Source: Candidatus Flavonifractor intestinigallinarum
GTDB taxonomy: Bacteria; Bacillota; Clostridia; Oscillospirales; Oscillospiraceae
Direction: 5' to 3'
DNA length: 59,013 bases
NCBI GenBank assembly: GCA_019119165.1
Contig: DWXO01000024.1
Span: forward strand, 1 to 59,013
This document shows positions 28,307-54,786 of this stretch, in pieces. How positions within the stretch are numbered: position 1 is the stretch's first letter; each line of letters begins with the position of its first letter. Position numbers and translations under genes: made by a program. Below the pieces are notes generated by a model. The model was not told where the DNA came from, searched no databases, and saw only the letters and a program-made list of their open reading frames with translations.

Positions 28307-28349
28307 CAAAAAAAGAAGTTCCGCGCCACCGGCGCGGAACTCCTTTTTT
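28307..28349. terminator. Bidirectional terminator between convergent genes
   Basis: AGTTCCGCGCC/GGCGCGGAACT with a 3-base loop is flanked by an A-run and a T-run, ending both the Q/W-repeat gene and recR. Confidence 0.92.
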
Positions 28350-28351
28350 GG

Positions 28352-28954
28352 TTACATTTCCCGGCGGCCCTCCAGGGCCCGCATGAGGGTGGCGTCGTCG
28401 GCATACTCCAGATGGCTGCCCACCGGGATGCCGTAGGCCAGCCGGGTCACTCTGACGCCAAAGGGGCGCAGCAGGCGGGAGAGGTACATGGCGGTGGCCT
28501 CTCCCTCGGTATCCGGGTTGGTGGCCATGATAACCTCGCTGACGCCGCCTTCGGCCACCCGGTTGACCAGCTCCTTCACCCGCAGCTCATCGGGACCCAC
28601 ATGATTCATGGGGGAGATGACGCCGTGGAGGACGTGGTATACGCCGGGGTACTCCCGGGAGCGCTCCATAGCAGCCACGTCCTTGGGGTCGGCCACCACG
28701 CAGATCACCGAGGGGTCCCGCTTGGGGTCCTGGCAGATGGGACACAGGCCATCCCCCTGGGAGAAGTTCTGACACACCGGGCAGCAGTGGATGGCGGCCT
28801 TTGCCTCGGTGATGGCCTGCGCGAAAGCGGCGGCGTCCTCCTCCGGCAGGGAGAGGACATAGAAAGCCAGCCGCTGGGCGCTCTTCCGGCCGATGCCGGG
28901 CAGACGGGCGAACTGCTCCACCAGCTGCTCCAGCGCGGGGGGAAAGTATTGCAT
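28352..28954 (-). CDS. recR: Recombination mediator RecR
   Basis: 200 aa. RecR acts with RecO/RecF to load RecA on gapped DNA. It has the helix-hairpin-helix LPGIGRKSAQRLAFYVL, the zinc finger CCPVCQNFSQGDGLCPIC and the Toprim domain (VICVVADPKDVAAME, IMATNPDTEGEATA). The ATG at 28954 is used because AAGGGA is 11 bases upstream; the frame could open four codons earlier. It ends the rpe-cupin-recR unit. dnaX and ybaB, frequent neighbours, are not here. Confidence 0.96.
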   Translation of the reverse strand: MQYFPPALEQLVEQFARLPGIGRKSAQRLAFYVLSLPEEDAAAFAQAITEAKAAIHCCPVCQNFSQGDGLCPICQDPKRDPSVICVVADPKDVAAMERSREYPGVYHVLHGVISPMNHVGPDELRVKELVNRVAEGGVSEVIMATNPDTEGEATAMYLSRLLRPFGVRVTRLAYGIPVGSHLEYADDATLMRALEGRREM

Positions 28955-36236: not shown

Positions 36237-36262
36237 AGAGGCAACAACTGAATCCAATCAGC

Positions 36263-36427
36263 GGTTGGTAGCTGTCCGCCCACGGGGCGGAGCTTTCAAT
36301 GGGAATGCGGTGCGAATCCGCAGCAGCCCTCTCTACTGTAAGGATGACGAGCGCTCACAAGGTCACTGTCCGGCTGACGGATGGGAAGACGGGCGTAAGG
36401 TGGAGTCCAAGCCAGGAGACCAGCCAG
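36263..36427 (+). promoter_or_regulatory. Cobalamin (B12) riboswitch
   Basis: The conserved core is readable: AATGGGAATGCGGTGCGAAT with a CCGCAGCAGCCC pairing partner, CTACTGTAAGG, and the B12 box AAGCCAGGAGACCAGCC. A GC-rich TGACGCGC/GCGCGTCA stem (about 36437-36471) and a terminator at 36497 form the expression platform. Cobalamin should switch off the genes downstream, none of which is a known B12 gene. Confidence 0.95.
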
Positions 36428-36496
36428 CCGCGAAGGTGACGCGCGTGTTCGGCGGGGAAAGGGCGCGTCATGACAGCCCAGGCACTGTGCGAATGT

Positions 36497-44788: not shown

Positions 44789-44827
44789 TAAGGAAAGCCC
44801 CCCGGCTTGACCGGGGGGCTTTCCTTA
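44789..44827. terminator. Bidirectional terminator between hemolysin III gene and gltD
   Basis: AAGGAAAGCCCCCCGG/CCGGGGGGCTTTCCTT with a 5-base loop lies between convergent genes and overlaps the gltD stop. Confidence 0.85.
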
Positions 44828-46282
44828 TAGATTGGTGTATCCCATCAAATACTGGTCCACCTCACGGGCGGCCTGGCGGCCCTCCTGGATGGCCCACACC
44901 ACCAGAGACTGTCCACGGCGCATATCGCCGGCGGCAAAGACGCCGGGCGCCGTCGTGGCGTAGCTTCCCTCCGCTGTCTGAACGCAGGAGCGGGGCGTTA
45001 GGGCCAGCCCGAAGGCCTGGGGCACATAGGCCTGGGGCCCTAAAAAGCCGGCGGCGATAAGAAGCAGGTCGCAGTCCAGCACCGCCTCGGTGCCGGGAAT
45101 GGGCTGGTGATCCCGGCCCAGCCGTACGGTCTTGACGGCCTTCAGCTTGCCGTCCTTGTGGCCCATCAGCTCGGCCACGGTGGTCTCGTAGACCCGGGGA
45201 TCGTGGCCGAAGAGGGCGATGGCCTCCTCCTGGCCGTAATCGGTTTTACACACCCTTGGCCACTCCGGCCAGGGGTTATTTTCCGCCCGCTGATCGGGGG
45301 CCTTGGGCATCATCTCCAGCTGGGTCACGCTGGCGCAGCCGTGGCGGATGCAGGTGCCCACGCAGTCGTTGCCGGTGTCGCCGCCGCCCACGATGACAAC
45401 GTGCTTGCCCTTGGCGGAGGGGTAGGTGCCGTCGGCCAGATTGGAGTCCAGCAGGGAACGGGTGGTCTCCTTCAAAAAGTCCACTGCGAACCACACCCCG
45501 TCCAGCTCCCGGCCGGGAACGGCCAGATCCCGGGGCTGGGCGGCGCCGCAGCACAGCACCACCGCGTCAAAGTCCCGCCGCAGCTGCTCCGGGCTGAGGT
45601 CTTTGCCCACATCCACGCCGGTGCGGAAGGTGATGCCCTCGGCGGCCATCTTGTCCAGCCGCCGCTGGACCACCGGCTTCTCCAGCTTCATGTTGGGAAT
45701 GCCGTACATCAAAAGGCCTCCGGGCCGGTCCTCTCGCTCCAACACGGTCACGCTGTGGCCACGGCGGTTGAGCTGGTCGGCGCAGGCCAGACCGGCGGGG
45801 CCGGAGCCCACCACCGCCACCTGCTTGCCGGTGCGGGCCCTGGGAGGCCGGGGGGACATGAGTCCCCGGTCCCAGGCGTCCTCAATGATGCCCAGCTCGT
45901 TGTCCTTGACGGTAACCGGGTCCCCGTGGAGGCCGCAGGTGCAGGCCGCCTCGCACAGGGCGGGACACACCCGGCCGGTAAACTCAGGGAAGTTGTTGGT
46001 CTTTAAAAGCCGCTCCAGGGCGTGGGTGAAGTTGCCGGTGTAGATGAGGTCGTTCCACTCGGGGACTAAGTTGTGGAGGGGACAGCCGGACACCATGCCG
46101 TTCAGCACCGCCCCCGACTGGCAGAAGGGCACGCCGCACTCCATGCACCGGGCGCCCTGCCGCCGCCGCTCGTCCCGACTGAGCCGGGGGTGAAACTCAT
46201 TGTAATGCTTGATGCGCTCCAGGGGGGACTGAGCGGGATTCCCCCTGCGCTGATATTCCATAAATCCGGTGGGTTTTCCCAT
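44825..46282 (-). CDS. gltD: Glutamate synthase small subunit
   Basis: 485 aa. It passes electrons from NADPH to the large subunit. An N-terminal [4Fe-4S] region ([36 protein letters not shown]) precedes two nucleotide-binding folds: [20 protein letters not shown] and [20 protein letters not shown]. The conserved [16 protein letters not shown] completes the FAD site. It starts 2 bases after the gltB stop and ends the glnA-ANTAR-gltB-gltD cluster. Confidence 0.96.
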
Positions 46283-46284
46283 GG

Positions 46285-49200
46285 TTATTCCCCCTTCTGT
46301 TGGGTGTTGACGTAGAAGGCCTCTACCTGGGCCTCCTCCCGGCTCATGCCCTTCTCCTCGTACTGGGCAATGGTGCGCAGCATCCGGTCGTAGTCGTGGG
46401 GCAGGATCTTCTTAAATAGAGGCAGGTAGTCCTCAAAGTGGGCCAAAATGTGGCTGGCCTTGGCCGAGCCGGTGGCGTCGGCATGGGCCTGGATCAGCTC
46501 CCGCAGCTCGGCGGCGTCGTGCTTTTCCATTACCGGCTCCATGGAGACCAGGGCCTTGTTGAGCCGCAGGTACAGGTCCCGGTGCTCGTCCAGCACATAG
46601 GCCACGCCGCCGCTCATACCGGCGGCAAAGTTCTTGCCGGTGGGACCCAGCACCACCACCCGGCCGCCGGTCATATATTCGCAGCCGTGGTCGCCCACGC
46701 CCTCCACCACGGCGGTGGCACCCGAGTTGCGGACGCAGAACCGCTCGCCGGCCACGCCGTTGAGGAAGGCCTGGCCGCTGGTGGCGCCGTAGAGGGCCAC
46801 GTTGCCCACCAGGATGTTCTCCGCCGGGTCAAAGGTGCTGTTCTTGGGGGGATAGACCACCAGACGGCCGCCGGACAGGCCCTTGCCCAGGTAGTCGTTG
46901 GCGTCGCCCTCCAGCTCCAGGGTCAGCCCCTTGGGCAGGAAGGCGCCGAAGGACTGGCCGCCGCCGCCGGTACACTTGACGGTGAAGGTGCCGCCGGGCA
47001 GGCTGTCGCCGTGGAGCCGGGTGATGTCGGAACCCAGAATGGTGCCCACCGCCCGGTCGGTGGAGGAGACCGCCACCTCCAGCCGCTTGGGGACGCCCTG
47101 GGCCAGGGCGCTGCCCAGCCTGCGCTCCAGCACCTTCAGGTCCACCGTGTCCTCCAGGTGGAAGTCGTAGACGTCGGCGGGATCAAAGTGCGTCTTTTCC
47201 GCGCCCACATAGGGGTTGTCCAGAATGGCGGACAGATCCACCGTGGCGGCCCGGTGGTTGACCGCCGGGGTGCGGACGGCCAGTAGATCGGTGCGGCCCA
47301 CCAGCTCCTCCACGGTGCGTACCCCCAGCTTGGCCATGTGCTCCCGCAGCTCCCGGGCGATGAAGCGCATAAAGTTGACCACATATTCCGGCTTGCCGGT
47401 GAACCGCTTTCTCAGCTCCGGATTCTGGGTAGCCACGCCCACCGGGCAGGTATCCAGGTTGCACACCCGCATCATGACGCAGCCCATGGTCACCAGGGGG
47501 GCGGTGGCAAAGCCGAACTCCTCGGCCCCCAGCATACAGGCGATGGCCACGTCCCGGCCGCTCATCAGCTTGCCGTCGGTCTCCACCACCACCCGGGACC
47601 GCAGTCCGTTCTGGATCAGGGTCTGGTGGGTCTCCGCCAGGCCCAGCTCCCAGGGCAGGCCCGCATTGTGGATGGAGGTGCGGGGGGCGGCGCCGGTGCC
47701 GCCGTCATAGCCGGACACCAGTACCACCTGGGCGCCCGCCTTGGCCACGCCGGCGGCCACGGTACCCACCCCCGCTTCGCTGACCAGCTTCACCGAGATG
47801 CGGGCCTGACGGTTGGCGCACTTGAGGTCGTAAATCAGCTGGGCCAGATCCTCGATGGAGTAGATGTCGTGGTGGGGCGGGGGAGAGATGAGGGTGACGC
47901 CGGGGGTGGAGTGGCGGCACCGGGCGATCCAGGGATATACCTTTCCGGCGGGCAGATGGCCGCCCTCGCCGGGCTTGGCGCCCTGGGCCATCTTGATCTG
48001 GATCTCCTTAGCAGATACCAGGTATTCGCTGGTGACGCCGAAGCGGCCGGAGGCCACCTGCTTGATGGCGGAGTTGCGGGCCGGGTCGTGGAGCCGGTCT
48101 GGCTCTTCACCGCCCTCGCCGGAGTTGGACTTGCCCCCCAGCAGGTTCATGGCCTGGGCCAGACACTCATGGGCCTCCCGGGAGATGGAGCCGTAGCTCA
48201 TGGCGCCGGTCTTGAAGCGCTTGACGATGGAGTCCACGCTCTCCACTTCCTCCAAAGGCAGAGGGGTGGGGGCGTACTTCATGTCCAGCAGGCCCCGGAG
48301 GGTGTGGGGGCTGGTTTCGTCGTCCACCAGGGCGGTGTACTGCTTGAACAGCTCATAATCCTCCAGACGGGTGGCCTGCTGGAGCAGGTGGATGGTCCGG
48401 GGATTGTACATATGGTCCTCGCCGCCGGACCGGGCCTTGTGGGCGCCCAGAGAGTCCAGGGTGGGGTCGGCCTCCAGCCCCAGGGGGTCGTAGGCCTTGG
48501 AGTGGTTGCGCTCCACCATGGCGGCGATCTCCCCCAGGCCGATGCCGCCCACCCGGGAGACGGTATTGGTGAAGTATTTGTCAATGACCGCCTGGTTGAT
48601 ACCGATGGCCTCGAAGATCTGGGCGGACTGATAGGACTGGAGGGTGGAGATGCCCATTTTGGAGGCGATCTTCACGATGCCGTGGAGGATGGCGGAGTGG
48701 TAGTCGGCCACGGCGGTGTGGTAGTCCTTGTCCAGCAGGCCCTCCTCGATGAGCTCCACAATGGTCTCCTCTGCCAGATAGGGATTGATGGCCCGGGCGC
48801 CGTAGCCCAGCAGGGTGGCAAAGTGGTGGACGTCCCGGGGCTCGGCGGACTCCAGCAGGATGGAGACGGCGGTGCGCTTCTTGGTGCGGATCAGGTGCTG
48901 CTCCATGGCGGATACCGCCAGCAGGGAGGGGATGGCCACATGGTTCTCATCCACGCCCCGGTCGGAGAGGATGATGATGTTGGCCCCCTTCCGCCAGGCC
49001 CGGTCCACCGCCAGGGCCAGATGGTCCAGAGCGCGGTCCAGAGGGGTGTTCTTATAGTAGAGGATGGACACCGTCTCCACCTGGAAGCCGGGCTGGTTCA
49101 TGGACCGTATCTTCATCAGGTCGGTGGAGGTGAGAATGGGGTTGTGGATCTGGAGCACCCGGCAGTTGTCCGCCGTCTCGGTGAGCAGATTGCCGTCGTC

Positions 49201-50823
49201 TCCCACATACACGGTGGTATCGGTGACGATCTCCTCACGGATGGCGTCGATGGGCGGGTTGGTCACCTGGGCGAAGAGCTGCTTGAAGTAGCTGAACAGG
49301 GGCTGATCCTTGTGGTCCAGCACCGCCAGGGGGATGTCGGTGCCCATGGCGGCGGTGGGCTCGGCCCCGGTGCGGGCCATGGGGAGGATGGTGTTGCGTA
49401 CATCCTCATAGGTGTAGCCGAAGGCCTTCTGGAGCCGGTGGAGCCCCTCTCTGGTGTGGCGCTCCACCCGGCGGTTGGGGATGGGCAGATCCTTTAAATG
49501 GAGCAGGTTGCGGTCCAGCCACTCGCCGTAGGGCTGCCGGGCGGCGTAGGATTCCTTCAGCTCGTCGTCTCCGATAATCCGGCCCTGGGTGGTGTCCACC
49601 AGCAGCATCCGCCCGGGCTGGAGCCGGGATTTCTCCACGATCTGCTCGGAGGGAATGTCCAGTACGCCCACCTCGGAGGCCAGGATGAGCCGTCCGTCCC
49701 GGGTGACATAATACCGGGAGGGGCGCAGGCCGTTGCGGTCCAGCACCGCCCCCACCACGTCGCCGTCGGAAAAGAGGATGGAGGCCGGGCCGTCCCAGGG
49801 CTCCATCAGGGTGGCGTAATACTGGTACAGATCCCGCTTGGACCGGGAGATGGCCTTATCCTCCATCCAGGGCTCCGGGATGCAGGCCATGACGGCCAGA
49901 GGCAGGTCCATGCCCGCCATCATGAGGAACTCCAGGGTGTTGTCCAGCATGGCGGAGTCGGAACCGTTTACATTGACCACCGGCAGCACCTTGTCCATCT
50001 GGTCGTCCAGCAGGGGGGAGGACATGGTCTCCTCCCGGGCCAGCATCCGGTCCACATTGCCTCGGATGGTGTTGATCTCGCCGTTGTGGGCCATGAGCCG
50101 GTTGGGATGGGCCCGCTCCCAGGAGGGATTGGTGTTGGTGGAGAAGCGGGAGTGGACCAGGGCAATGGCGGATTCATAGTCTCTGCTTTGCAGGTCGGGG
50201 TAGAACTTCCGCAGCTGGTCCACCAGGAACATCCCTTTATAGACGATGGTGCGGCTGGACAGGGAGGGGACATAGGTGTTGTCGTTGGATTGCTCAAACA
50301 CCCGGCGGGCGATATAGAGCTTCCGGTCGAAGGGCAGGCCCTGGGCGGTATCTGCCGGACGGGCCACAAAGGCCTGCTGGATGACGGGCATCTTGTCCCG
50401 GGCTTTCTGGCCCAGGATCTGGGGGCACACCGGCACCTCCCGCCAGCCCAGGAAGGTCAGGCCCTCCTTTTCGGCAATGACCTCGAACATCTTCCTGGCC
50501 TGGTTCCGCTTCAGGGTATCCTGGGGGAAGAAAAACATACCAACGCCGTAATCCCGGGGTCCGGGCAGCTGGATGCCTGCCGCCTGGGCAGCCTTGGAGA
50601 AAAAGCGGTGGGAGATCTGGACCAAAATACCCACGCCGTCGCCGGTCTTGCCCTCGGCGTCCTTGCCGGCGCGGTGTTCCAGCTTCTCCACAATTTTCAG
50701 TGCGTCGTCCACTGTCTGGTGGCTGGGTTTGCCCTGGATGTCCACCACGGCCCCAATACCGCAGCTGTCGTGTTCAAAGGCGGGGTGATAGAGTCCCCGG
50801 GGCGGATAGCCTTCTGTTTTCAT
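46285..50823 (-). CDS. gltB: Glutamate synthase large subunit
   Basis: 1512 aa. It makes two glutamates from glutamine and 2-oxoglutarate. The protein is processed after residue 20 so that Cys21 (HDSCGIGAVVD) becomes the glutaminase nucleophile. The amidotransferase (about 21-420), central, FMN/[3Fe-4S] domain (EGGEEPDRLHDPARNS, VSGYDGGTGAAPRTS, CNLDTCPVGVATQNPEL) and C-terminal beta-helix domain (GGRLVVYPP) are all present, and the length is normal. A terminator hairpin and ANTAR-type hairpin lie between it and the regulator gene upstream. Confidence 0.97.
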   Translation of the reverse strand: MKTEGYPPRGLYHPAFEHDSCGIGAVVDIQGKPSHQTVDDALKIVEKLEHRAGKDAEGKTGDGVGILVQISHRFFSKAAQAAGIQLPGPRDYGVGMFFFPQDTLKRNQARKMFEVIAEKEGLTFLGWREVPVCPQILGQKARDKMPVIQQAFVARPADTAQGLPFDRKLYIARRVFEQSNDNTYVPSLSSRTIVYKGMFLVDQLRKFYPDLQSRDYESAIALVHSRFSTNTNPSWERAHPNRLMAHNGEINTIRGNVDRMLAREETMSSPLLDDQMDKVLPVVNVNGSDSAMLDNTLEFLMMAGMDLPLAVMACIPEPWMEDKAISRSKRDLYQYYATLMEPWDGPASILFSDGDVVGAVLDRNGLRPSRYYVTRDGRLILASEVGVLDIPSEQIVEKSRLQPGRMLLVDTTQGRIIGDDELKESYAARQPYGEWLDRNLLHLKDLPIPNRRVERHTREGLHRLQKAFGYTYEDVRNTILPMARTGAEPTAAMGTDIPLAVLDHKDQPLFSYFKQLFAQVTNPPIDAIREEIVTDTTVYVGDDGNLLTETADNCRVLQIHNPILTSTDLMKIRSMNQPGFQVETVSILYYKNTPLDRALDHLALAVDRAWRKGANIIILSDRGVDENHVAIPSLLAVSAMEQHLIRTKKRTAVSILLESAEPRDVHHFATLLGYGARAINPYLAEETIVELIEEGLLDKDYHTAVADYHSAILHGIVKIASKMGISTLQSYQSAQIFEAIGINQAVIDKYFTNTVSRVGGIGLGEIAAMVERNHSKAYDPLGLEADPTLDSLGAHKARSGGEDHMYNPRTIHLLQQATRLEDYELFKQYTALVDDETSPHTLRGLLDMKYAPTPLPLEEVESVDSIVKRFKTGAMSYGSISREAHECLAQAMNLLGGKSNSGEGGEEPDRLHDPARNSAIKQVASGRFGVTSEYLVSAKEIQIKMAQGAKPGEGGHLPAGKVYPWIARCRHSTPGVTLISPPPHHDIYSIEDLAQLIYDLKCANRQARISVKLVSEAGVGTVAAGVAKAGAQVVLVSGYDGGTGAAPRTSIHNAGLPWELGLAETHQTLIQNGLRSRVVVETDGKLMSGRDVAIACMLGAEEFGFATAPLVTMGCVMMRVCNLDTCPVGVATQNPELRKRFTGKPEYVVNFMRFIARELREHMAKLGVRTVEELVGRTDLLAVRTPAVNHRAATVDLSAILDNPYVGAEKTHFDPADVYDFHLEDTVDLKVLERRLGSALAQGVPKRLEVAVSSTDRAVGTILGSDITRLHGDSLPGGTFTVKCTGGGGQSFGAFLPKGLTLELEGDANDYLGKGLSGGRLVVYPPKNSTFDPAENILVGNVALYGATSGQAFLNGVAGERFCVRNSGATAVVEGVGDHGCEYMTGGRVVVLGPTGKNFAAGMSGGVAYVLDEHRDLYLRLNKALVSMEPVMEKHDAAELRELIQAHADATGSAKASHILAHFEDYLPLFKKILPHDYDRMLRTIAQYEEKGMSREEAQVEAFYVNTQQKGE

Positions 50824-50867
50824 GGTTCATTCCCCTTTCCGGGTGAGTTTGGGCAGTGGGACGGTAG

Positions 50868-50920
50868 TAAAAAACGGCGGCAGTACGTCCCCGACTGCCG
50901 CCGTGAGACTGCATTGTCTC
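50868..50920 (-). promoter_or_regulatory. ANTAR-type hairpin plus terminator in front of gltB
   Basis: On the minus strand GAGAC-AATGCA-GTCTC (50905-50920) is a hairpin with a six-base loop having A at position 1 and G at position 4, the rule for ANTAR target loops. Directly after it, ACGGCGGCAGT/ACTGCCGCCGT (50874-50904) is followed by TTTTTT. This is the layout of an antitermination leader, and the ANTAR protein gene lies just upstream. A second hexaloop hairpin, usual in ANTAR targets, is not clear. Confidence 0.68.
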
Positions 50921-50937
50921 GTCCTGTTTAGTTTGCC

Positions 50938-51474
50938 CTATTCTGCGCTGTCCAGTACCATTTGGGCAGTCTGAAGCAATTTTGTACCGTTGTCCATACT
51001 GGACTTCTGCAAAAAGCGGTGGGCCTGCTCTTCTGTCATGCCGTTGCGGTCCATCAGCAGGGCCTTGGCCTGCTGAATGACTTCCAGCTCCTCCGGGGAG
51101 CGGCGGGGCCGCAGGGCCCGCTCCAGCCGCCGCCCCATCTGGAGAAGCATCCGCACCGATGCGGTCAGGTCCCCTTTGGATACCGGGGCGGGCAGCTGGA
51201 AGAGATCGTCGTTCTGCAGCAGGTCCAGCAGGTTCTGGGAGGCCAGAACCAGGACGGCACAGGAGGAGGGCAGATCGCCTGCCAGAGCCTCCACGCTCTG
51301 GTCGGCCAGCTTGAAGCCGCAGATCACTGCAGTGATGTGGAGTTTATTTGCCGTGCGGCGGACCTGGTCGGCAGTCTTGCAGAGAATACAGGAGGCCGTG
51401 CCTGAGGTCTCCAGGATCTCCTTGATGCGGCTTGCGCTTTTGGTATTTTCAAAGGCAACGATCACCTGTTCCAT
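50938..51474 (-). CDS. ANTAR-domain RNA-binding antiterminator
   Basis: 178 aa. The C-terminus (about 115-178) is an ANTAR domain: SPEELEVIQQAKALLMDRNGMTEEQAHRFLQKSS with the helical three-bundle pattern. The N-terminal receiver-like domain is degenerate: the acidic pair is replaced (VAFENTK) and the phospho-acceptor is missing (AVICGFKLAD), so phosphorylation is unlikely. It lies 41 bases after glnA and before a gltB terminator. A similar glnA - ANTAR gene - glt arrangement (nitR) is known in a solventogenic Clostridium, where it regulates nitrogen assimilation by antitermination. Confidence 0.88.
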   Translation of the reverse strand: MEQVIVAFENTKSASRIKEILETSGTASCILCKTADQVRRTANKLHITAVICGFKLADQSVEALAGDLPSSCAVLVLASQNLLDLLQNDDLFQLPAPVSKGDLTASVRMLLQMGRRLERALRPRRSPEELEVIQQAKALLMDRNGMTEEQAHRFLQKSSMDNGTKLLQTAQMVLDSAE

Positions 51475-51515
51475 GGATCATCACTCCCAACTGTGAGGAG
51501 GGTGTTGCTGAGAAA

Positions 51516-52847
51516 TCAATAGTTGATGATGTACTTCTCCCGCTCCCAGGAGGATACACGGGTGCGGTACTCATCCCATTCGGCTTCCTTGCCGGCCAGA
51601 TAGTTGCTGGTAATGTGCTCGCCCAGAGTGTCCATAATGAGGGAGTCGGCTTTCATAGCCTGGATGGCCTCCTCCAGGGAGCCGGGCAGGGAGTCGATGC
51701 CGTGGGCCTCGCGGGTGGCCTGATCCATCACAAAGATGTTCTCGGTGACCTCCGCCGGGGGAACCATGCCCTTCTCGATGCCGTCCAGACCGGCGGCCAG
51801 GCAGACGGCCAGTTCCAGGTAGGGGTTGCAGGCCGGGTCGGGGGAGCGGAGCTCCACACGAGTGGACTGGCCGCGGGAGGCGGGGATGCGGATGAGGGCG
51901 GAGCGGTTGGAGGCGGACCAGGCCAGGTAGCAGGGGGCCTCATAGCCGGGCACCAGACGCTTGTAGGAGTTGACCAGCGGGTTGGTCACGGCGGCCATGC
52001 CCTTCACGTGGGCCAGCAGACCGGCGATGAAGGAGTAGGCTTCCTTGGACAGGCCCCGCTCGTCACTGGGATCGTAGAATGCGTTCTTGCCGCCCCGGAA
52101 CAGGGACATATTGGTGTGCATTCCAGAGCCGTTGATGCCGAAGATGGGCTTTGGCATAAAGGTGGCGTGAAGGCCGTTCTTCTGAGCCAGGGTCTTGACC
52201 GCCAGCTTGAAGGTCATGATGTTGTCGGCAGCGTGAAGGGCTTCCTCGTACTTGAAGTCGATCTCGTGCTGACCTGCGGCCACTTCGTGGTGGCTGGCCT
52301 CGATCTCGAAGCCCATCTGCTCCAAGGCCATACAGATCTCCCGGCGGGTGCCCTCGCCGTGGTCCAGGGGGCCCAGGTCGAAGTAGCCCGCCTCGTCGTT
52401 GGTCTTGGTGGTGGGACGGCCCTCGTCGTCGGTCTGGAACAGGAAGAACTCGGCCTCGGGGCCTACGTTGAAGGCATCGTAGCCCATATCCTTGGCCCGC
52501 TGGAGGACCCGCTTCAGGGTGCCTCGGGGGTCGCCCACAAAGGGGGTGCCGTCGGGGTTGTGGACGTCGCAGATCAGACGGGCCACCTTGCCGTGGCTGG
52601 GCCGCCAGGGGAAAACCACGAAGGAGTTCAGATCAGGATAGAGATACTGGTCAGACTCGTCGATACGGACGAAACCCTCGATGGAGGAACCGTCGAACAT
52701 GATTTGATTGTTGACCGCCTTCTCAATCTGGGAGGCGGTGATGGCCACATTCTTCAGCTGACCAAAGATGTCGGTGAACTGGAGGCGGATAAACTCAATA
52801 TCCTCCTCATGGACGATGCGGATGATATCTTCCTTGGTGTACGACAT
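51516..52847 (-). CDS. glnA: Glutamine synthetase type I
   Basis: 443 aa. It makes glutamine from glutamate, ammonia and ATP. The usual motifs are [59 protein letters not shown] and [19 protein letters not shown]. The length fits the GS-I alpha type without an adenylylation Tyr loop. AAAGGAG precedes the ATG at 52847. It is first in the nitrogen cluster and has a terminator between its promoter and start codon. Confidence 0.96.
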
Positions 52848-52878
52848 TGCAGGTATCTCCTTTCCTTCTTTCATATTG

Positions 52879-52935
52879 AAAGAAAAAGAAGAAGGCGCTC
52901 CCACCCTGGCCGGGTTGGAACGCCTTCGTTCTCAA
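52879..52935 (-). promoter_or_regulatory. glnA leader with terminator and alternative hairpin
   Basis: On the minus strand, GAAGGCG...CGCCTTC (52891-52927), with ACCC/GGGT further pairing inside, is followed by TTCTTTTTCTTT, an intrinsic terminator. An alternative hairpin, TTGAGAACG-AAGG-CGTTCCAA (52915-52935), uses the terminator's 5' strand. The two exclude each other. ANTAR or other control of readthrough is inferred; the alternative hairpin has no hexaloop. Confidence 0.68.
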
Positions 52936-52946
52936 CTGATGGTGTA

Positions 52947-52975
52947 AGTATAGTGTGGACAGCTGTTTTTGTCAA
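52947..52975 (-). promoter_or_regulatory. Promoter of the glnA cluster
   Basis: On the minus strand: -35 TTGACA, 17-bp spacer, -10 TATACT. Transcription would begin just before the leader hairpins. Confidence 0.85.
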
Positions 52976-53084
52976 TAGGAAATTAACGGAATAGACGAAT
53001 TTAGGAAAGATAACTGTAAAACAAATGCTTTTGTGAGCTAAATTTTATGCAACTAGTGACATAAGGACTTGCACAAATGGGACG

Positions 53085-54773
<1,689 letters not shown>

Positions 54774-54786
54774 GTTCACGGCGGAT

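Follow-up and report, generated by a model that had tools for sequence, protein, structure and literature searches.

An ANTAR-domain protein gene lies between the glutamine synthetase and glutamate synthase genes of Candidatus Flavonifractor intestinigallinarum, and the short leader behind it raises the question of how such a protein could act on an RNA that presents a single hexaloop hairpin. The window, that is the whole 59,013-nucleotide stretch of DNA that was analysed, comes from a 2.29-Mb assembly that is 85.6% complete and contains two ANTAR genes, each located right behind a glnA gene. The minus strand of the window carries, in this order, pyrG, glnA, the ANTAR gene, gltB and gltD. The pyrG gene (53085..54698, start at 54698) encodes a glutamine-hydrolysing CTP synthase (Pfam CTP_synth_N, 2.3e-123, and GATase, 4.8e-40), and glnA (51516..52847, ATG at 52847) a type I glutamine synthetase (NCBIfam TIGR00653, 555 bits against a cut-off of 429). 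The ANTAR gene (50938..51474) is followed by gltB (46285..50823, ATG at 50823), the glutamate synthase large subunit with the Pfam domains GATase_2, Glu_synthase, Glu_syn_central and GXGXG, and by gltD (44825..46282), an open reading frame named as the small subunit from its sequence and its position behind gltB. Elsewhere, the window holds a cobalamin riboswitch aptamer (36249-36442 on the plus strand, 107.7 bits) and, at its start, a tRNA (19-91) and a 5S rRNA (230-345).

A promoter of the form TTGACA-17-TATACT, with 11 of 12 consensus matches, precedes glnA on the minus strand (52947..52975). A scan of the minus strand of 50700-53200 returned two promoter-like sites, this one and a 9/12 match within glnA (shuffled sequences gave 0.9), and none between the ANTAR gene and gltB. 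Because no promoter-like site separates the latter two genes, glnA, the ANTAR gene and gltBD probably form a single transcription unit, which, judged from its sequence, would be controlled at its start and again in its middle.

As reviews describe it (PMC6316151, PMC4676874), NitR of Clostridium saccharobutylicum (Stutz et al. 2007) is an ANTAR-family antiterminator that induces glutamine synthetase and glutamate synthase genes; nitR had been named beforehand as a similar system, and by the description in the first of these reviews it is indeed the nearest one known. The present ANTAR gene is likewise clustered with genes for both enzymes (glnA-ANTAR-gltB-gltD). The NitR system is reportedly induced on nitrogen limitation and is said to involve an antisense RNA. 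What sets the present system apart from the review descriptions of NitR is the single hexaloops in three leaders, the CTP synthase target, and the links to dapF and dapL.

The RNA targets of ANTAR proteins such as EutV, NasR and AmiR were described by Ramesh et al. 2012 (PMC3369931) as dual hexaloops, and such targets were predicted to precede glutamate synthase and glutamine synthetase genes as well. The leaders described below resemble them in the hexaloop hairpin, with its C-G closing pair and a G at loop position 4 (G4), and in its place next to an intrinsic terminator; they differ in having one hexaloop per leader, in accepting G at position 1 and, at gltB, in lacking an overlap with the terminator. 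Walshe et al. 2022 (PMC8934654) conclude that an EutV dimer takes up hexaloops singly, and redefine the minimal motif as a single hexaloop. In their proposal the first hairpin, P1, recruits the EutV dimer, and the second, P2, which overlaps the terminator, blocks termination. Further literature was also drawn on (PMC7496416, PMC8164766, PMC3369936).

The hairpin of the gltB leader, GAGAC-AATGCA-GTCTC (50905..50920, minus strand), is defined by its sequence and conservation and has a C-G closing pair, A at loop position 1 and G4. It is adjoined, with no overlap, by an intrinsic terminator with an 11-bp stem and a T run (50868..50904, minus strand), the stem being ACGGCGGCAGT/ACTGCCGCCGT at 50904-50874 with the T run behind it. 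The 60-nt leader folds at -31.5 kcal/mol (z -6.16), and none of 200 shuffles folds as well. An ANTAR gene followed by an AATGCA hexaloop hairpin and a terminator before gltB is what the original prediction had described, and sequence and fold agree with it in all but two details: 17 nt, where 18 had been predicted, separate the ANTAR stop codon (ending at 50938) from the hairpin stem, and the hairpin, said to be placed against the terminator, is adjacent to it without acting as an antiterminator in the usual sense, since the two stand side by side in the same minimum-energy fold.

The pattern behind the ANTAR gene recurs in relatives, both before gltB and before dapF. A strict script with no hand-picking found an RRNG hexaloop with a terminator-like stem behind it in 22 of the 38 relatives whose ANTAR proteins are at least 55% identical, against one, two and one with A, C and T at position 4; the remaining 16 of the 38 fail. 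Conservation of the loop, on which the prediction had depended, is thus seen among close relatives. Over all 109 post-ANTAR regions the RRNG pattern was found in 26, compared with three, two and one for A, C and T, and 83 of the 109 fail. In 26 loops of the gltB/dapF type, chosen by hand from 92 post-ANTAR regions, position 4 is always G (a count that is not unbiased, because the loops were picked by hand), position 1 is A (16) or G (10), and position 2 is A in 24.

Leaders of this type were aligned as A3 (28 leaders, leaving out L056, L061 and L066) and A4 (24 leaders, leaving out also L010, L017, L058 and L070, in which the hairpin did not align). Across hairpin and terminator, five of 16 pairs are altered on both sides and 96.3% of cells are paired, which supports both elements, and seven of the 11 terminator pairs are invariant among the 24 relatives of A4. 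The terminator arm GGCGGCAGTC (50874-50904) is near-constant across diverged species in which nothing around it aligns, and it is also present in three relatives that lack the hexaloop (L080, L084, L085). The nine-base arms of the gltB terminator occur at one site in the own genome, where the search for a second gltB-type element gave nothing convincing; the leader of the paralogue is lost at a contig end, and the next matches, of 27.1 and 25.4 bits, are the two strands of one spot (L128) that is a plain terminator. At two further loci a hairpin just behind the ANTAR gene covers the gltB ribosome-binding site, namely CATCAC-AAGGAT-GTGATG (L031) and, by eye, ACAC-GAGGAC-GTGTT (L027); no terminator-like stem was found at either post-ANTAR hairpin, and together with their position this would suit translation control.

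Three leaders of this general kind are present in the window, before gltB, glnA and pyrG, each with one G4 hexaloop. Those of glnA (52891-52931) and pyrG (54722-54777) lie outside the range to which the original prediction applied and were not mentioned in it. In the glnA leader the hairpin GAAC-GAAGGC-GTTC (G1, G4; 52918..52931, minus strand) lies 15 nt behind the -10 box, and its loop and 3′ arm are included in the 5′ arm of a terminator (52875..52927, minus strand; stem 52927-52891, T-rich tail). The pyrG hairpin, GAAC-GAGGGC-GTTC (G1, G4; 54764..54777, minus strand), is found 9 nt behind a -10-like TAAAGT recognized by eye, and overlaps a terminator (54713..54774, minus strand; stem 54774-54722, T run). 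The C-G closing pair and G4 are common to all three hexaloops. A G at position 1, as in the leaders of glnA and pyrG, is in keeping with the observation that EutV makes no contact with A1 of the hexaloop (PMC8934654). By fold, then, the hairpin overlaps the terminator at glnA and pyrG and does not at gltB. The unusual layout of the RNA target, with one hexaloop, had been predicted for gltB and is borne out.

In a test that applied the same criteria throughout (a 4-bp stem, an RRNG hexaloop and a terminator overlapping them), 47 of 87 glnA leaders passed, with a Markov shuffle mean of 0.13, as did eight of 30 pyrG leaders, with a mean of 0.03; with A, C or T at position 4 the count falls to 0 in both sets, and one of 89 random 150-mers from the loci passes. 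The test is failed by 40 of the 87 glnA leaders and 22 of the 30 pyrG leaders. The 87 glnA leaders, like the 124 loci considered below, include near-duplicates and the same genomes from two collections and are not independent. Over the 31 glnA leaders of alignment A5, nine of the 16 pairs of the terminator stem show changes on both sides, amounting to 41 such cells compared with 15.4 in shuffles; A5 was obtained by dropping 19 of 48 regex leaders as near-duplicate, atypical or weak and adding L112 and L119 by eye, and the 100% pairing of its glnA hairpin carries no weight because the regex already requires the hairpin.

Model R2, of which the glnA leader of the window is part, recovered both glnA leaders of the own genome (E 1.6e-11 and 1.2e-10), the next match, at 0.0013, being a plain terminator. 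The pyrG leader of the window scored E 0.013 with the same model, and a match at window 28308-28353 was rejected as a plain terminator. Among 150 family genomes there were 24 matches at E<=1e-5, several of which were training sequences; 21 of the 24 precede glnA (by coordinates and tblastn), and one, from outside the model, precedes an unlinked gltB (G089). Of the remaining two R2-type leaders, one (G138:C21:6567-6623, L183) is located about 150 nt before an ANTAR-domain coding stretch, where autoregulation is possible, and the other (G083:C180:745-798, L184) precedes an ATP-grasp gene that is circularly permuted, in a genome in which a protein search found no ANTAR relative. Beyond the family, R2 marks a class-II glutamine amidotransferase gene in G163 and, in G443, the leader of a type III glutamine synthetase, and R2 matches are also recorded at L258 (G261) and L259 (G443). 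Under strict filters R2 matches occur in four of 391 genomes of the class, the own genome included, and a relative of the protein in 192 of the 391. Model R1 gave 26 matches in the 150 family genomes; those examined, the 12 at E<=1.1e-5, all adjoin ANTAR genes, 10 of them being training sequences or identical to one.

No Rfam family reaches its gathering score in these leaders, and the sub-threshold matches (one at E 0.29, eight at E 0.25-2.8) are to unrelated families. Hexaloop hairpins taken alone show no enrichment in the own genome, with 46 matches against 107 for the reversed pattern, and for this reason they were not used as evidence. When terminator overlap was scored by script at 29 loci, covering 30 of the 46 matches, the second glnA alone passed; among the other 16, the glnA and pyrG sites of the window were the ones checked for overlap.

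The gene order is similarly recurrent. Of 124 loci that were not de-duplicated, 118 have a glnA gene at most 400 nt upstream of the ANTAR gene; the gene that follows is dapF in 47, gltB in 42, dapL in 13 and pyrG in two, and the other 20 loci have none of the four there. In seven of the 27 family genomes in which both were found, the ANTAR and pyrG genes lie no more than 1 kb apart (G003, G015, G023, G024, G026, G054, G058). In these seven, as at L043 and L044, more distant ANTAR genes stand directly before pyrG, and two of the seven, G023 and G058, have an RRNG hexaloop hairpin in front of pyrG.

The reading that we consider likely, though well short of assured, is that a NitR-like ANTAR regulator works through these single hexaloops, causing antitermination at glnA and pyrG and tuning readthrough into gltBD, with its input arriving through a pseudo-receiver domain. 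Here, the ANTAR protein would recognise single hexaloop hairpins in the pyrG, glnA and gltB leaders by the closing C-G pair, the G at loop position 4 and a purine at position 1. The glnA and pyrG hairpins would arise within the first nucleotides of the transcript, and the 5′ arm of the terminator would take in their loop and 3′ arm; antitermination is proposed for these two leaders because hairpin and terminator are mutually exclusive. Active protein would hold the hairpin, the terminator would be blocked and the operon transcribed. The second hexaloop, just before the gltB terminator, would let the protein set the amount of transcription that continues into gltBD. Since hairpin and terminator coexist there, binding would have to act sterically, through a mini-hairpin in the terminator arm, or in the opposite direction. 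By analogy with EutV targets, the glnA and pyrG leaders may be seen as P2 without P1, and the gltB leader as P1 without a canonical P2.

For EutV, a single P1 or P2 loop is bound with about the same strength as the two together (PMC8934654). Against this reading stand the need of EutV antitermination for both loops in vivo, the weak binding of a single hairpin by NasR (about 12 µM), and the gltB hairpin that does not exclude its terminator; the leaders that fail the tests above, the lack of enrichment of lone hexaloop hairpins, the modest R2 score of the pyrG leader and the few R2 matches in the class also count against it. To reconcile single loops with EutV, one has to suppose either a difference in this clade or a second element that is hidden. 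The conserved sequence feature is well supported, and the mechanism is put forward as a proposal.

The opposite direction of action at gltB leads to an alternative that we regard as unlikely but worth weighing, in which bound ANTAR protein promotes termination, so that the regulator would increase expression of glnA and pyrG while decreasing or balancing that of gltBD. The bound hairpin would keep its 3′ arm, GTCTC, off the purines of the terminator loop; a competitor hairpin would be prevented and the terminator would fold. Without the 3′ arm of the terminator the gltB leader does fold into GTCTC...GGGAC and not into the hexaloop hairpin, and a 5-bp complementarity between the 3′ arm of the hairpin and the terminator loop is found in 12 of 24 leaders, where shuffles average 5.0 and reach 12 in two of 2000. 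However, the full terminator is far more stable than the competitor (-31.5 versus -12.7 kcal/mol), the 24 sequences are related and rich in purines, and the other 12 have no 5-bp match.

A hidden second element is the substance of another alternative, also improbable in our estimation, according to which the leaders are ordinary two-hairpin ANTAR targets with the second hairpin in disguise. A mini-hairpin, GGC-GGCA-GTC, can form in the 5′ arm of the terminator in all 24 aligned gltB/dapF leaders, and this arm is unusually constant; it is the sole second element that they share, no second canonical hexaloop being present at a shared place among the 24. The mini-hairpin, however, is a tetraloop without A1 or G4, and Met172 of EutV has been suggested to exclude tetraloops (PMC8934654). 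In the glnA and pyrG RNAs no hexaloop hairpin fits upstream, because only 15 and 9 nt, respectively, separate the -10 box from the hairpin, which is too short.

It is also conceivable, and to our mind rather doubtful, that hairpin and terminator at gltB together work as a fixed partial terminator, by which the ratio of glnA to gltB is set without the ANTAR protein, leaving only glnA and pyrG regulated. The coexistence of hairpin and terminator would suit such a device, and in many relatives the ANTAR gene is followed by a terminator that has no hexaloop with it, so the terminator by itself can evidently serve. A plain terminator, on the other hand, has no need of G4, which was found in 22 of the 26 RRN-type hexaloops when the 38 close relatives were counted by letter, nor does it require the closing GAC/GTC that is near-constant in the 24 leaders.

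Returning to single-hexaloop recognition, the protein itself has features that bear on both RNA contact and input. It is 178 aa long, and its closest named relative is 96% identical and from an uncultured Flavonifractor. The ANTAR domain at its C-terminus (Pfam PF03861, residues 125-174) is recognized at E 7.6e-17 and 61.3 bits against a curated cut-off of 27.3. An AlphaFold2 model (pLDDT 87.8, pTM 0.63) consists of a receiver-like N-terminal domain, a long helix and the helical ANTAR domain; the six best fold matches include Rv1626, EutV (free and with RNA) and AmiR, at TM-scores of about 0.5-0.6, and the N-terminal part resembles many receivers, although Pfam has no receiver-domain match in the protein at E<=1.

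The residues by which EutV contacts G4 are Lys149, Glu160, Tyr164 and Met172, and its Arg142, Lys143 and Lys147 hold the loop from the second chain or G4 (PMC8934654). In our mapping through an alignment with Rv1626 and EutV, the counterparts Lys137, Glu148 and Met160 are kept and His152 takes the place of Tyr164, all four being invariant among 59 relatives. Unlike in EutV, Arg142, Lys143 and Lys147 are replaced by Leu130, Glu131 and Gln135, and Asp54 is lost.

That the receiver domain lacks its phospho-acceptor had been predicted and is confirmed by the alignment, in which the acceptor Asp of Rv1626 and EutV corresponds to Gly53, at least 90% conserved in 59 relatives, and the receiver Lys to Ala96. 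It is therefore highly improbable, despite the predicted receiver fold of the N-terminal domain, that the protein is a phosphorylated response regulator of the ordinary two-component kind, as EutV is, and kinase input is unlikely. Two cysteines of the pseudo-receiver, Cys52 beside the lost Asp and Cys32, are each at least 90% conserved in the same number of relatives.

With the phospho-acceptor Asp lost, the putative signal would be a metabolite or a protein, entering through the pseudo-receiver and not by phosphorylation. AmiR (1qo0), which is among the top fold matches, likewise has a receiver-like domain without phosphorylation, and its pseudo-receiver is gated by a protein partner, AmiC (PMC8934654); its targets differ, being amidase genes where those of the present protein would serve nitrogen assimilation. 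The AmiC-AmiR pair provides the model for gating by a partner, and the likeliest gate would be a protein, perhaps the adjacent glutamine synthetase, as gene order suggests. Glutamine synthetase is proposed because it is the constant neighbour and because there is a precedent in Bacillus, where, according to a review, glutamine synthetase senses for the nitrogen regulator TnrA. Unlike the DNA-binding TnrA, the output here would be RNA attenuation, and the interaction with glutamine synthetase is hypothetical. Another possible partner is a PII domain, of which the own genome has one (G000:C2:3590-3904, L255); as it lies inside a 603-codon open frame, it is probably fused to another domain.

In the literature searched, which mostly excluded subscription papers, ANTAR was not found together with CTP synthase (as whole words), and 'single hexaloop' occurred together with ANTAR in PMC8934654 alone. 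The kind of system is already known, whereas its layout with one loop and its CTP synthase target appear to be new; within that literature the family-wide one-hexaloop leaders, the CTP synthase target, and dapF and dapL as linked genes are new.

Walshe et al. 2022 (PMC8934654) called for bioinformatics on the role of single hexaloops, and the present leaders are a conserved natural set, of antitermination-only (glnA, pyrG) and recruitment-only (gltB) type, near the gene of the likely regulator, which makes the two-loop rule directly testable. Tentatively, and with less confidence than in the reading favoured for this locus, the Oscillospiraceae may possess a nitrogen regulon built on single-hexaloop ANTAR attenuators, with the antitermination hairpin only at glnA and pyrG and the recruitment-type hairpin only at gltB and dapF, in which one hexaloop would be enough co-transcriptionally and the pseudo-receiver would be gated by the neighbouring glutamine synthetase and not by a kinase. 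If true, one hexaloop would suffice for co-transcriptional control, against the two-loop rule drawn from EutV. The arrangement also suggests a way in which these gut Firmicutes could link the synthesis of glutamine, glutamate and CTP and, in relatives, that of diaminopimelate.
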